A stretch of DNA of 64,000 nucleotides from Rhodothermia bacterium (GTDB lineage Bacteria > Bacteroidota > Rhodothermia > Balneolales > Balneolaceae): positions 1 to 64,000 of the forward strand of contig JAUICM010000001.1 in assembly GCA_030427885.1 (NCBI GenBank). The letters run 5' to 3'. The first letter of the stretch is position 1. Every line of letters starts with the position of its first letter. Below the pieces are notes generated by a model. It was not told where the DNA came from. It searched no databases and worked only from the letters and a program-made list of their open reading frames with translations. Positions 59,235 to 64,000 of the stretch are shown in pieces. Made by a program: the position numbers and the translations under genes.

Positions 59235-59373
59235 TGAATCAGATATAAAATTTAATCGAAAGAGTTTACAGTTTGAAAGAGACATTGCAGATCAATTCAT
59301 ACTGTTAACATCTCAAATATTCTCAAAAGTGATATAAAGAAGATTTCGATGAGTATGAGTTCAATACGAGTAA

Positions 59374-60333
59374 TCAGGTATTCAGTAAAGCTTCTGCTGT
59401 CAACTGGTCAGTTATTAATACATCAATTAGTTCTCCGGAAAGAGCTCCTTTAATAACTTTTATTTTCCCGGGTCCTCCGGCCAAAGCTACTACAGTATCA
59501 ACTTTCTTAACTTCTTCGATGGTTATTCCAATAGTTAGTTCTTCAAGCTTCGATACGATTGAATTTCCATGAATATCAAAAAACCGAAGTGCTATATCAC
59601 CTACTGCTTCTGAATTAATTATTTCATTGTAAAGTGAATCAGGTATTTCATGGGATCCTGGTTTTAAAACAGGGTTGGTCTCAATTGATCCGAGACCTAC
59701 ATATAGTGTGTTGATCTTAGAAAATAAATCTAAAGCTGTTTTTACCTGTCTGTCGGAAAGCAATACTTTTTTTGCATCAGTGCTACCTACAATACCCGGA
59801 GCAGGCAGGAGGGTAAGCCGACTGTTCAATAATTGAGATAGTCTGCGTGAAATATCAGTTGTGTGAGCTCTATCTTCTGGTGGTCCGACTCCACCAAGCG
59901 CCTGAACCACATGTATATTTTCAATTTCATTAGGAGGTAAGGCGTCAATAAAAGCTTCCAGAGTAGTACCCCAGCTTACTCCTATAGTATCACCATTTGA
60001 GATCGTACGATGGAAAAAATTAGCTGCTGCGGTACCAATTTGCTTTTTTAACACTTTACCGGAAGCCTGAGGATCGGCTTCCACAATCAGAACTTCTTTC
60101 AGCCCAAACTTGTCTTCAAGGGCATTTTCAAGTTCTATAAAATTCTCAGCGGGTGAAACTACTGATATCTGAACTATACCAACTTCACGAGCCTGCTTTA
60201 GAAGTCGTGAAATTTTTGGACGAGACAAATGTAATCGATCTGCTATCTGTTGCTGGTTATACCCCTGATCATAATACATGGAGCTTACTTTGGTAAGCAG
60301 ACGCTTTTCGAGTGAATTATTAACTCTGATCAT
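59374..60333 (-). CDS. SorC/DeoR-type sugar-binding transcriptional regulator
   Basis: The 319-residue cytoplasmic protein has an N-terminal HTH (about 10-50; YNQQQIADRLHLSRPKISRLL) and a C-terminal effector domain of the SorC sugar-binding family (about 60-315; IGVSWGTTLEAFI, VQALGGVG, GLGSIE, AGGPGK). Such regulators bind phosphorylated sugars or sugar acids and act at spaced palindromes. Tandem palindromic half-sites lie 305-320 bases upstream, between this gene and the sigma factor. It is on the same strand as DUF4861 with a 139-base gap. Effector unknown; a rhamnose- or uronate-derived phosphate is a guess from neighbours. Confidence 0.9.
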   Translation of the reverse strand: MIRVNNSLEKRLLTKVSSMYYDQGYNQQQIADRLHLSRPKISRLLKQAREVGIVQISVVSPAENFIELENALEDKFGLKEVLIVEADPQASGKVLKKQIGTAAANFFHRTISNGDTIGVSWGTTLEAFIDALPPNEIENIHVVQALGGVGPPEDRAHTTDISRRLSQLLNSRLTLLPAPGIVGSTDAKKVLLSDRQVKTALDLFSKINTLYVGLGSIETNPVLKPGSHEIPDSLYNEIINSEAVGDIALRFFDIHGNSIVSKLEELTIGITIEEVKKVDTVVALAGGPGKIKVIKGALSGELIDVLITDQLTAEALLNT

Positions 60334-60722
60334 AAATGACTATAAAAATACAATTTTCCTTGTGATCTCATGGAGTCGAAGGGACTGAAAATACATAAAC
60401 CAAGACTAAGGGGAAACGATTCTTTCCCGCTATGTTAGCAGGCACGGCTGATTAACTGAAGCGCAATAGTACCAGTTATACACTTAATAAAATATCCCCT
60501 GATATTTGGATAAAAAGAATATATCGACTTTTAAATGATAGTTAATTATGCGCTTAATTTAATTCAAAATTTGAAACCACTTATTTATTGACAATGAAAT
60601 AATATTTTTTAAATTGGTAAAGAACATTGTTTCACAAGTGAACATTTGTTCACTCTCTGATTTTAGACTCAGAAGTGCTATTAAGAGTTGAGATCTACTA
60701 TTTGGAGAACTGATATAAAACA
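60334..60722. other. Divergent regulatory region, SorC regulator / ECF sigma factor
   Basis: This 389-base region has no gene. It holds an 18-base inverted repeat with GGGAAA and TTTCCC around CGATTC (60411-60428), similar in centre to LacI/GalR operators, and the GTGAACA palindrome array at 60622-60653. Confidence 0.55.
60622..60653. promoter_or_regulatory. Tandem palindromic operator candidate (SorC/DeoR type)
   Basis: A perfect palindrome of GTGAACA and TGTTCAC with a two-base centre spans 60638-60653. A weaker version (GAACATTGTTTCAC) starts 18 bases earlier at 60622. The two overlap through a TTCAC/GTGAA inverted pair. They lie between the SorC gene and the sigma gene. Similar TGTTCA half-sites are known for DeoR/SorC regulators. 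Confidence 0.55.
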
Positions 60723-61349
60723 ATGTGTTGGATTCGCAAAAAAAGTAGGACAAAAATGTTAGCCAAAATCACAAAACCCAAGCAATGGAATTCTGAAAGT
60801 AGCGAGAGTTGGGAGAAGTTATGGCTTAAGAGCATAAATGGAGACAGGAATGCTCTTTCAAAACTATATTGTTATTCCTATTCAGACCTATATAAGTACG
60901 GGTATAAAATTTATCCCGACAACGCTCTGGTAAAAGATGGTATACAGGAATTGTTTTTGAATATTTGGGGAAACAGAAACAGTTTAAGCCAAGCCAATTC
61001 AGTTAAGTCATATTTATTTTCTTCGCTTCGAAGAGTTCTTCTTCGCCGTTTACAAAAAAACAGAAATCAGGCAGTGCGTAACAGAACTTATGAGCAAAAT
61101 AGTTTTGAGCAGATCTTTAACTGCGAAGAACTTTTAATTCATTTCGAAACAGAACGTTATAAAAAACAGAAATTAATGGAAGCGCTTCGCTTACTAACTA
61201 AGCGCCAGAAGGAAGCTGTATATTTGAAATTTTATAGTGGTCTCTCAAACAATGAGATTTCAAAAATCATGGATTTGAATAAGCAAAGTGTATATAACCA
61301 TATATCTAAGGCTATTAATCGCATGCAGGAATTTGTGCAGGTATTGTAA
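60723..61349 (+). CDS. ECF-type RNA polymerase sigma factor
   Basis: The 208-residue protein may start at ATG 60723 or ATG 60756. Region 2 (about 40-110) contains DGIQELFLNIWGNRNSL and a YLFSSLRRVLLRRLQ helix. Region 4 (about 150-205) contains LTKRQKEAVYLKFYSGLSNNEISKIM and an HTH ending VYNHISKAINRM. This is the FecI-like group used by Bacteroidota for TonB-receptor and polysaccharide loci. It is followed 78 bases later by a short anti-sigma-like gene and then a TonB-dependent receptor, the expected order for a cell-surface signalling trio, although the anti-sigma is reduced. Confidence 0.92.
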   Translation: MCWIRKKSRTKMLAKITKPKQWNSESSESWEKLWLKSINGDRNALSKLYCYSYSDLYKYGYKIYPDNALVKDGIQELFLNIWGNRNSLSQANSVKSYLFSSLRRVLLRRLQKNRNQAVRNRTYEQNSFEQIFNCEELLIHFETERYKKQKLMEALRLLTKRQKEAVYLKFYSGLSNNEISKIMDLNKQSVYNHISKAINRMQEFVQVL

Positions 61350-61399
61350 GCTTAGTTTCATCAGTTCAATTCTTTAATGAGTAGATTTGAAGCCTGAGA

Positions 61400-61421
61400 A
61401 CCTCTTTAGCAATAAGGAGGT
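61400..61421 (+). promoter_or_regulatory. SD-sequestering hairpin with GCAA tetraloop before the anti-sigma-like gene
   Basis: ACCTCTTTA (61400-61408) pairs with TAAGGAGGT (61413-61421) around a GCAA loop (61409-61412), with nine pairs including one U-G. The 3' arm is a consensus Shine-Dalgarno sequence for the TTG start at 61428, so folding would hide it completely. Such a site is exceptional in this window, where most genes have no SD. It could act as a thermosensor, a ligand- or protein-controlled switch, or a brake relieved by ribosomes coming from the sigma gene. Confidence 0.7.
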
Positions 61422-61427
61422 GCTAAT

Positions 61428-61697
61428 TTGAAGAATGAAACGAAGAATTTCAGTGCACTAATCAATAATGAGTCTTTTTTGCGTTGGCTGAGGGGAACGA
61501 GTTCAGCAGACGAAACAACAAAGTGGCGTAAATGGCATTTAGAAAGTTTCTACAACCAGGAATTGACTCGTAAAGCTAAAAAAATTATAAATATGCCTTT
61601 CGAAAACCCGGATGTTTCTGCTGAAGATGTAAAAAGGGAGATTGAAAGATTCAACAAGCATTTTCTGAGACTGGTAAACGATAAAGGCTCTGAATAA
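61428..61697 (+). CDS. Minimal anti-sigma-like protein (FecR N-terminal-domain type, soluble)
   Basis: The 89-residue protein starts at TTG 61428. The start is decided by the SD AAGGAGG at 61414-61420, seven bases upstream; no in-frame ATG is near. The sequence NESFLRWLRGTSSADETTKWRKW followed by a long charged helix looks like the N-terminal cytoplasmic sigma-binding domain of Bacteroidota FecR anti-sigma factors. The transmembrane helix and the periplasmic FecR domain that normally follow (in all over 300 residues) are absent, and no continuation is seen in any frame downstream. It lies between a FecI-like sigma factor and a TonB receptor. The function is inferred from position and resemblance only. 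Confidence 0.65.
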   Translation: MKNETKNFSALINNESFLRWLRGTSSADETTKWRKWHLESFYNQELTRKAKKIINMPFENPDVSAEDVKREIERFNKHFLRLVNDKGSE

Positions 61698-61883
61698 AGG
61701 ACTAAGGGCTTAGGTTTATAAATTTGGAGATACAAATAGTAAATAAGATTGTTCACTTGGAGAATATTTTTTTCACGAAAAGTGAGTAGATAAAACTTAT
61801 TGGTGTCTCTTAAAACAAAACAGGAAAGTAACATTATGAGAAAAGCTGATGCTTTAAGCGGAAGCGCTTTTCAGATAAAAGTC

Positions 61884-64000
61884 ATGGATAAAAAGAATAT
61901 GTGGAATGACAGAAAGAAATTTTTTCTAACGCTATTTGTTTTCTTACTGGGGATGACATCTTTATCAGCTCAGTCTGGTCAAATAAAAGGTATGGTTCTG
62001 GATAGCTCTACTGAAGAACCATTGATCGGAGTGAATGTAGGTATAAGCGGGACTAGTATTGGTGCACCCAGTGATGTAGATGGGGAGTTTGTGATTAACC
62101 GGGTTCCCGCTGGTAGTTATACTCTTGTAGCCAGTTCTATCGGGTATAAGGATTATACTGCCGAAATAGAAGTGGTTGGTGGTCAAGTACTGGAGTTGAA
62201 TATTTTATTAGAACAGGAAACGCTAGAAGGAGAAGAAGTAATAATTTCAGCACAGGCCCAGGGACAGAGGTCTGCAATTAACGAGCAGATATCTTCTAAT
62301 ACTATAACAAATGTGGTATCAGCAGAAAGAATTCAGGAAATCCCGGATATGAATGCGGCAGAATCAGTTGGGCGTTTATCGGGGGTTTCTGTAGTAAGAA
62401 GTGGTGGAGAAGGACAGAAAGTAGCAATTCGTGGTTTGTCACCACAATACAATGTGGTCATGGTTAATGGTATTCGAATGCAATCCACAGATCGTGATGA
62501 TCGTAGTGTGGATCTGAATATGATCGCTCCCAATGTACTATCCGGAATTTCAGTAACGAAAGCATTAACTGCTGATATGGACGCTGATGCAGTAGGTGGA
62601 ACAGTTAACCTTAGAATTGGTAAAGCCAGAGAAGGTTTTCATAGTAATTTTTCGCTACAGTCAGGATATGCATCTATGGCTTATACGGCTAAGCAAACAT
62701 ACGGTAATTATCGACTTTCAGGATTAGTTACTAACCGGTATTTAAATAATAAGTTGGGAGTGCAGGTTTCAGGTTTTCTGGAAAATCAAAATAGAAACTC
62801 AGACGCCTTAGGAGCTGGCTATACTACCAATAGGGAAGATATCAGAGATGACAGCGATCTTATCAAGCTTAATCTGTCAAGTGTCACCATTACTGATAGA
62901 GTTACCGACAGACAAAGAGCGGGAGGAAGTCTTGTTTTAGATTATGAACTTCCAAACGGCTCATTAATATTGAATAATTTTATAAGCAGTCTGAATGAGG
63001 AAGGGGTTACACAGAGTAATACTTTTGATACAGGATATGGTTGGAGGGGGTATGCATCAACAGGTGAATTCACAAACACTGTAATTAATAATGCACTTCA
63101 GGGTGAATTTGATTTTGGGTTATTTCAAATGGATTTCTCCCTTTCTAATTCAGTGTCTAAGCAAGACAATCCCAATACCTTAAGAATGGATGTGCGGACA
63201 CTATTAGGAGGAGAAACGGGATTTACAGCTGATCCAAGTCTTACCTTAAATCAACTTAGTCCGATAGAATTACTAAATGCTGCTGAGATCATACCTAGAG
63301 ATAAGCTGGCATCAGGAACCAGTTCACAGATAAGGGATGTAACCGATCAGGCACAGGCTGTAGCACTCAATTTTAAGTTACCTTTTAACTTTACCGATAA
63401 TATTACCGGAAACATGAAGTTTGGAGGAAAGGCTGAACGTAATGAGAGAGATAATGATGAAGAAGTATTATCGATTAATACGGACAGAGGCGGGCTTACC
63501 GGCAGTTTTATTGACCTTTTAAGAACCGAATGGCCGGAACTTGGTATTGCTGATGATCAGTCACATATAGCACATACCCTGGTATACGATCCGAATTATG
63601 AAATAACTGATTTTCTTGCTGGTAATGAGGGTGTTAATGCGAGCAGGTTTTACAACTTAATTTCACTGGACAAAATGCGCCGTATGGAGCAAATCGCCAG
63701 AGAATTTGACTTCTATCTTCCTGATCCATTAGGATCAACCCAGTATGATTATAATTATACAAGGAATTTCCAGGCATTTTATGCCATGGCTGAAATTAAT
63801 CTTGGTAAATATATTACTCTTCAACCAGGAATTCGGTATGAACAATTTAATTTCGATTATACTGCGGATTCAACAGTTGTATTTGGTAGGCTTACAACCC
63901 CTGGTGAACACTATTATAATTCGGCAACATTACAAAGTGATGTCACCGAAGGGAAAAATTGGTTTCCGCAAATGCAGCTCCGTATTAAGCCTACCGAATG
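61884..64000 (+). CDS. TonB-dependent outer-membrane receptor, N-terminal part (3' end outside window)
   Basis: The frame is open from ATG 61884 (an in-frame ATG at 61836 is also possible) to the end of the window, about 705 residues. A signal peptide ending SLSAQ is followed by a carboxypeptidase-regulatory-like domain (about 33-115; GVNVGISGTSIGAPSDVDGEF), a plug with IQEIPDMNAAESVGRLSGV and VAIRGLSPQYNVVMVNGIRM (about 135-250), and barrel strands after that. The plug is of the TonB-Xanthomonas/Caulobacter type, often used for plant-polymer oligosaccharides. There is no secretin/STN signalling domain. It is not a SusC partner in this window, as no SusD is visible before the end. Confidence 0.93.
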   Translation, partial: MDKKNMWNDRKKFFLTLFVFLLGMTSLSAQSGQIKGMVLDSSTEEPLIGVNVGISGTSIGAPSDVDGEFVINRVPAGSYTLVASSIGYKDYTAEIEVVGGQVLELNILLEQETLEGEEVIISAQAQGQRSAINEQISSNTITNVVSAERIQEIPDMNAAESVGRLSGVSVVRSGGEGQKVAIRGLSPQYNVVMVNGIRMQSTDRDDRSVDLNMIAPNVLSGISVTKALTADMDADAVGGTVNLRIGKAREGFHSNFSLQSGYASMAYTAKQTYGNYRLSGLVTNRYLNNKLGVQVSGFLENQNRNSDALGAGYTTNREDIRDDSDLIKLNLSSVTITDRVTDRQRAGGSLVLDYELPNGSLILNNFISSLNEEGVTQSNTFDTGYGWRGYASTGEFTNTVINNALQGEFDFGLFQMDFSLSNSVSKQDNPNTLRMDVRTLLGGETGFTADPSLTLNQLSPIELLNAAEIIPRDKLASGTSSQIRDVTDQAQAVALNFKLPFNFTDNITGNMKFGGKAERNERDNDEEVLSINTDRGGLTGSFIDLLRTEWPELGIADDQSHIAHTLVYDPNYEITDFLAGNEGVNASRFYNLISLDKMRRMEQIAREFDFYLPDPLGSTQYDYNYTRNFQAFYAMAEINLGKYITLQPGIRYEQFNFDYTADSTVVFGRLTTPGEHYYNSATLQSDVTEGKNWFPQMQLRIKPTE

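Follow-up and report, generated by a model that had tools for sequence, protein, structure and literature searches.

A putative sigma factor promoter inside a Shine-Dalgarno hairpin as a candidate lock on an anti-sigma message in a Balneolaceae bacterium

Analysis of the first 64,000 nucleotides of contig JAUICM010000001.1 (hereafter the window) revealed a 22-base hairpin just upstream of a putative anti-sigma gene, in which the 3' arm carries a full-strength Shine-Dalgarno sequence and the 5' arm coincides with the putative -10 box of an ECF-type promoter. We propose that the hairpin locks one isoform of the anti-sigma message and not the other, a reading to which we give a modestly better than even chance. 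The fuller proposal is that placing a sigma promoter in the anti-Shine-Dalgarno strand makes only sigma-started messages translatable, and that a stand-alone cytoplasmic anti-sigma domain is set by dosage and perhaps translated by special ribosomes; this is offered more tentatively, at slightly under an even chance. Sequence and comparison between genomes show that the hairpin exists and is conserved in a second genus, that the paired promoter motif recurs before pectin genes, and that such a promoter motif stands before anti-sigma genes across the family.

Genes of the locus

The first gene of the locus encodes an ECF-type sigma factor (61349 being its last position and 60756 its first, + strand), which matched the Sigma70 region 2, region 4 and sigma70-ECF models. 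The listed open reading frame begins at 60723; alignment with the relative places the start at the ATG of 60756. The orthologue in genome G022 is 77% identical. The second gene (61428-61697, +) encodes a protein of 89 residues that is related to the N-terminal domain of FecR-type anti-sigma proteins and stands alone. The frame has no in-frame start near its beginning other than the TTG at 61428, and the same TTG lies at the same distance in Gracilimonas mengyeensis.

The 89-residue protein gave no convincing Pfam match and no FecR match. It aligned with the first 80 residues of proteins of 350-370 residues from the same bacterial family, and FecR and FecR_C domains were found in all three of these long relatives that were scanned. 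Because it aligns only with the N-terminus of relatives that bear FecR and FecR_C, we read it as probably a free-standing anti-sigma domain without a membrane segment, and its anti-sigma role is a putative one that follows from this alignment. The AlphaFold model was all helical with a mean pLDDT of 82. Searches of solved structures with the anti-sigma profile or model returned nothing usable, giving weak RGS matches and Foldseek E-values of 6.5 and worse.

The third gene encodes a TonB-dependent receptor (61836-64000, +, running past the end of the window to about 64862) with CarbopepD_reg_2, Plug and TonB-Xanth-Caul matches, and is a likely target of the sigma factor. A run of genes for pectin and rhamnogalacturonan degradation follows it on the 3' side. 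The order of ECF sigma factor, FecR-like protein and TonB receptor, with polysaccharide-degradation genes alongside, resembles that of the FecI-FecR-FecA systems, including those of Bacteroides polysaccharide utilization. In contrast to those systems, the window protein consists of the N-terminal domain alone (89 residues, with no membrane segment, FecR or FecR_C), so that the classical FecR signal relay is unavailable to it.

Other stand-alone N-terminal anti-sigma domains of about 80-95 residues were observed at loci L005, L006 and L030, where no Shine-Dalgarno hairpin is present; each of these genomes has sigma factors about 50% identical to that of the window. We also observed a palindrome, GTGAACATTTGTTCAC (60638-60653, +), 5' of the sigma gene, which also fits a terminator-like pattern. 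It occurs once in the window against 0.23 expected with two mismatches allowed, is largely retained in G. mengyeensis, and is possibly an operator for the adjoining SorC/DeoR-like regulator (59374-60333).

Structure of the hairpin and strength of the Shine-Dalgarno sequence

The hairpin occupies positions 61400-61421 of the + strand and comprises the 5' arm ACCTCTTTA (61400-61408), a GCAA loop of the GNRA class (61409-61412) and the 3' arm TAAGGAGGT (61413-61421). As an earlier note on this DNA had stated, nine pairs are closed by the GCAA tetraloop; eight are Watson-Crick pairs and one is a U-G pair (61405-61416). The isolated hairpin folded at -10.0 kcal/mol. A 36-base segment containing it reached -12.0 kcal/mol, compared with -4.9 +/- 2.2 kcal/mol for shuffled sequences (z of -3.3; two of 200 shuffles were equally good), and a 101-base segment around it gave a z of -2.6 against shuffles. 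Hairpins of nine pairs are common enough in themselves, as 88 were counted in the window and 61-75 in its shuffles. The hairpin was also considered as a terminator and rejected, as no T run lies 3' of the stem and the scan for terminator-like sites reported none there.

The Shine-Dalgarno sequence AAGGAGGT (61414-61421) lies within the 3' arm and ends six bases 5' of the TTG. Its pairing with the 16S tail was calculated at -14.8 kcal/mol, and that of the G. mengyeensis site at -12.5 kcal/mol, which bears out the earlier description of a full consensus ribosome site for this start codon. The window site is the strongest among the 56 anti-sigma loci of the family. No 16S gene was found in the source assembly; the 16S tail of the relative G022, GGATCACCTCCTTT, is intact. 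Over 100 kb, matches of at least five bases were found 5' of the first ATG for 5 of 58 genes, as against about 6% of random positions, in agreement with the earlier statement that most genes here lack a Shine-Dalgarno sequence. Such sites are thus not enriched in this Balneolaceae genome, and the anti-sigma site is exceptional.

A promoter motif in the 5' arm and the putative regulon

Upstream of the hairpin we found a putative -35 box of the anti-sigma promoter, GAGTAGAT (61379-61386, +), all eight positions of which are kept in G. mengyeensis. Together with the downstream bases it forms the motif GAGTAGAT-N15-CTCTT, whose CTCTT (61402-61406) falls inside the 5' arm, and this arm therefore coincides with what is, by its motif, the putative -10 box of an ECF-type promoter. 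ECF promoters usually show a distance of 23 bases between the starts of the two boxes, as is the case here. A second copy of the motif lies 5' of the TonB receptor gene (61784-61811, +; 25 of 28 positions kept). The N15 spacing was identical at all four sites in the two species, that is, at the hairpin and the TonB gene in each, and among the matches listed the exact motif occurred in both genomes at these sites only.

A looser form, NAGTA-N16-GTCTCTT, was found six times in the 100 kb searched, compared with 0.085 expected from base shuffles, and its sites precede genes for a GDSL esterase, a PL4 rhamnogalacturonan lyase and oligogalacturonate-lyase-like proteins. G. mengyeensis has similar looser sites before similar pectin-related genes. 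The putative sigma regulon comprises the site at 61784-61811, those at 66936, 77221 (-), 82092 and 88191 of G000:C2, and possibly one at 59304 (-), a weaker site overlapping the start listed for its gene; the genes concerned are those for the TonB receptor, the GDSL esterase, the PL4 lyase, oligogalacturonate-lyase-like proteins and others. The window's own sigma factor probably reads the hairpin promoter.

The position of the promoter is shared more widely than the hairpin. At 37 of the family's 56 distinct anti-sigma loci, GAGTA-N17..19-TCT was present 5' of the anti-sigma gene; the antisense strand gave no match and reversed sequence gave four. A predicted promoter between the sigma and anti-sigma genes is thus a family trait. 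Its Balneolaceae-wide form before FecR-type anti-sigma genes can be written GAGTA(G/C)-N17..19-TCT (loci L007-L032 and L113-L141).

Two further inverted repeats were observed near such promoters. One, at G000:C2:66936, is a perfect repeat, CTCTTTA-AAAT-TAAAGAG, directly 3' of the promoter core before the GDSL esterase gene, with a p of 0.07 when taken alone. The other lies 5' of the anti-sigma gene at L005, TTTACATG ... CATGTAAA; this repeat spans the leader, its first arm reaching the -10 box, and is possibly a different kind of lock.

Conservation of the hairpin and the likelihood of chance pairing

Comparison of the window with G. mengyeensis revealed that 21 of the 22 hairpin positions are identical, the sole change being GCAA to GTAA, which keeps the GNRA loop. 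The surroundings were far less similar, with 10 of 29 positions identical before the -35 box, 6 of 13 in the spacer and 4 of 6 between the Shine-Dalgarno sequence and the start codon. Thus, on the aligned sequences, the hairpin is retained in two genera while nearby non-coding DNA diverged. A search of 129 genomes of the order for the promoter joined to AAGGAG returned these two loci and two chance-looking matches, one inside a reading frame and one lacking any neighbouring sigma or anti-sigma frame. We therefore rejected the idea that the hairpin is shared by the whole family, as a strong Shine-Dalgarno sequence is present only in the window and G. mengyeensis among the 56 anti-sigma loci. 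The comparison of homologous loci for which the earlier note had called gave a hairpin kept almost unchanged in one relative and absent at the other loci of the family, which have the promoter without a strong Shine-Dalgarno sequence and without this hairpin; the absence elsewhere counts against the lock.

The main alternative, which we consider unlikely though it deserves serious weight, is that the stem is a by-product. A -10 box rich in pyrimidines and a Shine-Dalgarno sequence rich in purines would lie close together and in register by chance, and the hairpin would have no role. CTCTT is complementary to AGGAG by construction, each arm has its own reason to be conserved, one as a -10 box and the other as a Shine-Dalgarno sequence, and as a set the -10 boxes of the regulon pair with their own leaders no better than chance (Fisher p of 0.13), so that such pairing is not a rule of the regulon. 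When the full consensus GTCTCTT is taken as the -10 sequence in the observed register, 14% of random flanks yield nine pairs if wobbles are counted. With CTCTT and AAGGAGGT fixed in that register, however, nine pairs with any number of wobbles arise with 3.6% of random flanks, and a stem such as the observed one, with at most one G-U pair, arises with only 0.4%. When these two elements are given and both register and flanks are random, 0.7% reach -10 kcal/mol.

Further points argue against chance pairing. The bases between the -10 box and the Shine-Dalgarno sequence, and the GNRA loop, were also retained within the 21 of 22 positions. In both species the -10 context at the hairpin is ACCTCTT, compared with GTCTCTT in the regulon, and both departures from the consensus convert wobble pairs into Watson-Crick pairs; this change of GT to AC lowers the folding energy from -6.6 to -10.0 kcal/mol. 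Moreover, a read-through RNA would be locked regardless of whether selection built the stem. Chance pairing keeps the weight given above because the two species, in which both arms are invariant, amount to a single comparison rather than two independent ones and thus yield no covariation signal.

A lock that would depend on where the transcript starts

In the proposed lock, transcripts running on from the sigma gene would contain both arms, the Shine-Dalgarno sequence would be paired and little anti-sigma protein would be made. The scan for terminator-like sites reported none between the sigma and anti-sigma genes, which makes read-through transcription between them plausible. The 5' arm would double as the -10 box of a promoter probably used by the sigma factor itself. 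With the -10 box at 61402-61406, usual ECF promoter geometry would have the sigma-dependent message begin near 61411-61415 (+), within the loop or the early 3' arm; a message starting there would lack the 5' arm and could not form the stem. Its full-strength Shine-Dalgarno sequence, six bases 5' of the start codon, would be free. The position of the transcription start thus probably decides which message contains the hairpin. Production of the anti-sigma protein would have to wait for active sigma factor, so that negative feedback would set in with a delay: the sigma factor would build up first and then be capped by the anti-sigma protein.

The calculated cost of opening the Shine-Dalgarno sequence differed between the two RNAs in both species. 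In the window it was 6.6-9.1 kcal/mol in the read-through RNA compared with 0.5-4.8 kcal/mol in the start-site RNA, the upper value reflecting partial folding of the latter in some 3' contexts; in G. mengyeensis the corresponding ranges were 9.2-11.4 and 0.4-2.0 kcal/mol. Given this difference, a single 22-base element should keep the read-through message locked and leave the start-site message free.

The earlier note had taken the hairpin for a regulatory device that sets the ratio of sigma to anti-sigma factor. A paired, full-strength Shine-Dalgarno sequence kept in two genera, in a genome where such sites are not enriched, speaks for such a device, whereas the three mechanisms named for it, a thermometer, coupling to sigma translation and a switch, fared poorly. 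The usual layout of an RNA thermometer is a paired Shine-Dalgarno sequence in a short stem, and the hairpin has this layout, so that it might be thought to open with heat. When folds were computed over a range of temperatures, however, the Shine-Dalgarno sequence stayed closed from 15 to 55 °C in the model, with a mean unpaired probability of 0.02 throughout and 5.8 kcal/mol still needed to open it at 55 °C. Rfam gave no family match for the hairpin, thermometer families included, and a pectin regulon offers no reason for heat sensing; we give this explanation almost no credence. Coupling would have ribosomes that finish the sigma gene open the hairpin and so fix the ratio of the two proteins. 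The two genes do follow in order on one strand, with the hairpin just 5' of the second, but 50 bases separate the sigma stop codon from the stem (52 in G. mengyeensis). A distance of 50-52 bases exceeds the reach of a terminating ribosome, and coupling is very improbable. As for a ligand switch, we found nothing in its favour.

Shine-Dalgarno use by Bacteroidota ribosomes

In Bacteroidia, the anti-Shine-Dalgarno sequence is hidden by bS21, bS18 and bS6, and the ribosomes largely ignore Shine-Dalgarno sequences (PMC9976891); it is therefore uncertain whether the ribosomes of this organism would use the anti-sigma site. Messages with very strong Shine-Dalgarno sequences are better translated by ribosomes lacking bS21, of which rpsU, with an extended Shine-Dalgarno sequence across Bacteroidota, is the known case (PMC9976891). 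The gene was located here as well (L150, G000:C11:20774-20935, minus strand), with the extended sequence GAAAGGAAGTGAGG at -16.0 kcal/mol, which as expected fits bS21 autoregulation in Bacteroidota. Another strong Shine-Dalgarno sequence, AAAAAGGAGGTAACC, was observed at G000:C2:73817, 13 bases 5' of a glucuronyl-esterase-like ATG, with no comparable hairpin.

A different account of the locus is that the anti-sigma gene, like rpsU, is a client of bS21-lacking ribosomes and that the hairpin silences it on ordinary ones. Reporters with strong Shine-Dalgarno sequences respond to bS21 loss in F. johnsoniae (PMC9976891). The window's anti-sigma site lies beyond the -13 kcal/mol threshold of that paper and the G. 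mengyeensis site falls just short of it, as judged by our own energy program, which differs from the one used there. Against this account, such control is confined to rpsU in most Flavobacteriales (PMC9976891), nothing ties the sigma system of the window to ribosome assembly, and the promoter in the 5' arm is left unexplained. We consider it improbable as a replacement for the lock; if the anti-sigma gene were indeed read by bS21-lacking ribosomes, this would be an addition to the lock. The anti-sigma site and rpsU are alike in having an exceptionally strong Shine-Dalgarno sequence on a rare gene in a genome that hardly uses such sites. They differ in that control of rpsU relies on ribosomes lacking bS21 and on an extended site that is left free, whereas the site of the anti-sigma gene is closed within a stem and linked to a promoter.

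Comparison with phage T4 and significance

In phage T4, long transcripts of gene e (lysozyme), soc, 49 and I-TevI that start upstream hide the ribosome site in a helix, I-TevI being controlled by a similar sequestering structure (PMC3014915). For gene e, the long transcripts are the early ones; the DNA encoding the 5' strand contains a late promoter used by another sigma factor, and transcripts from there lack that strand and are translated (PMC3014915). The window locus is alike in that its ribosome site pairs with an upstream strand in the predicted fold of the long transcript. It may also be alike in the placement of its promoter, as sequence comparison puts a promoter motif at its 5' strand and promoter geometry puts the expected start in the loop or the early 3' arm. 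The two systems are not identical. The mechanism was experimentally shown in T4 and is deduced here; the T4 structures time phage lysis or endonuclease expression, whereas the window product is the probable antagonist of the sigma factor that would read the promoter, which would close a feedback loop; and the window locus belongs to a phylum that rarely uses Shine-Dalgarno sites. As far as a limited literature search shows, promoter-in-hairpin logic is new for a bacterial sigma/anti-sigma pair with feedback in a genome without general Shine-Dalgarno use.

If the proposal is correct, one 22-base element would join transcriptional and translational control into a feedback delay for the sigma factor, and the T4 gene e arrangement would be at work in a bacterial operon. 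The element would also offer synthetic circuits a compact building block. From the promoter motif the pectin regulon of the sigma factor can be predicted, and from its related form, anti-sigma promoters across Balneolaceae. For the organism, the anti-sigma protein is probably a brake on a regulator of sugar uptake, and the lock would explain the retention of a perfect Shine-Dalgarno sequence in a genome where such sites are scarcely used.
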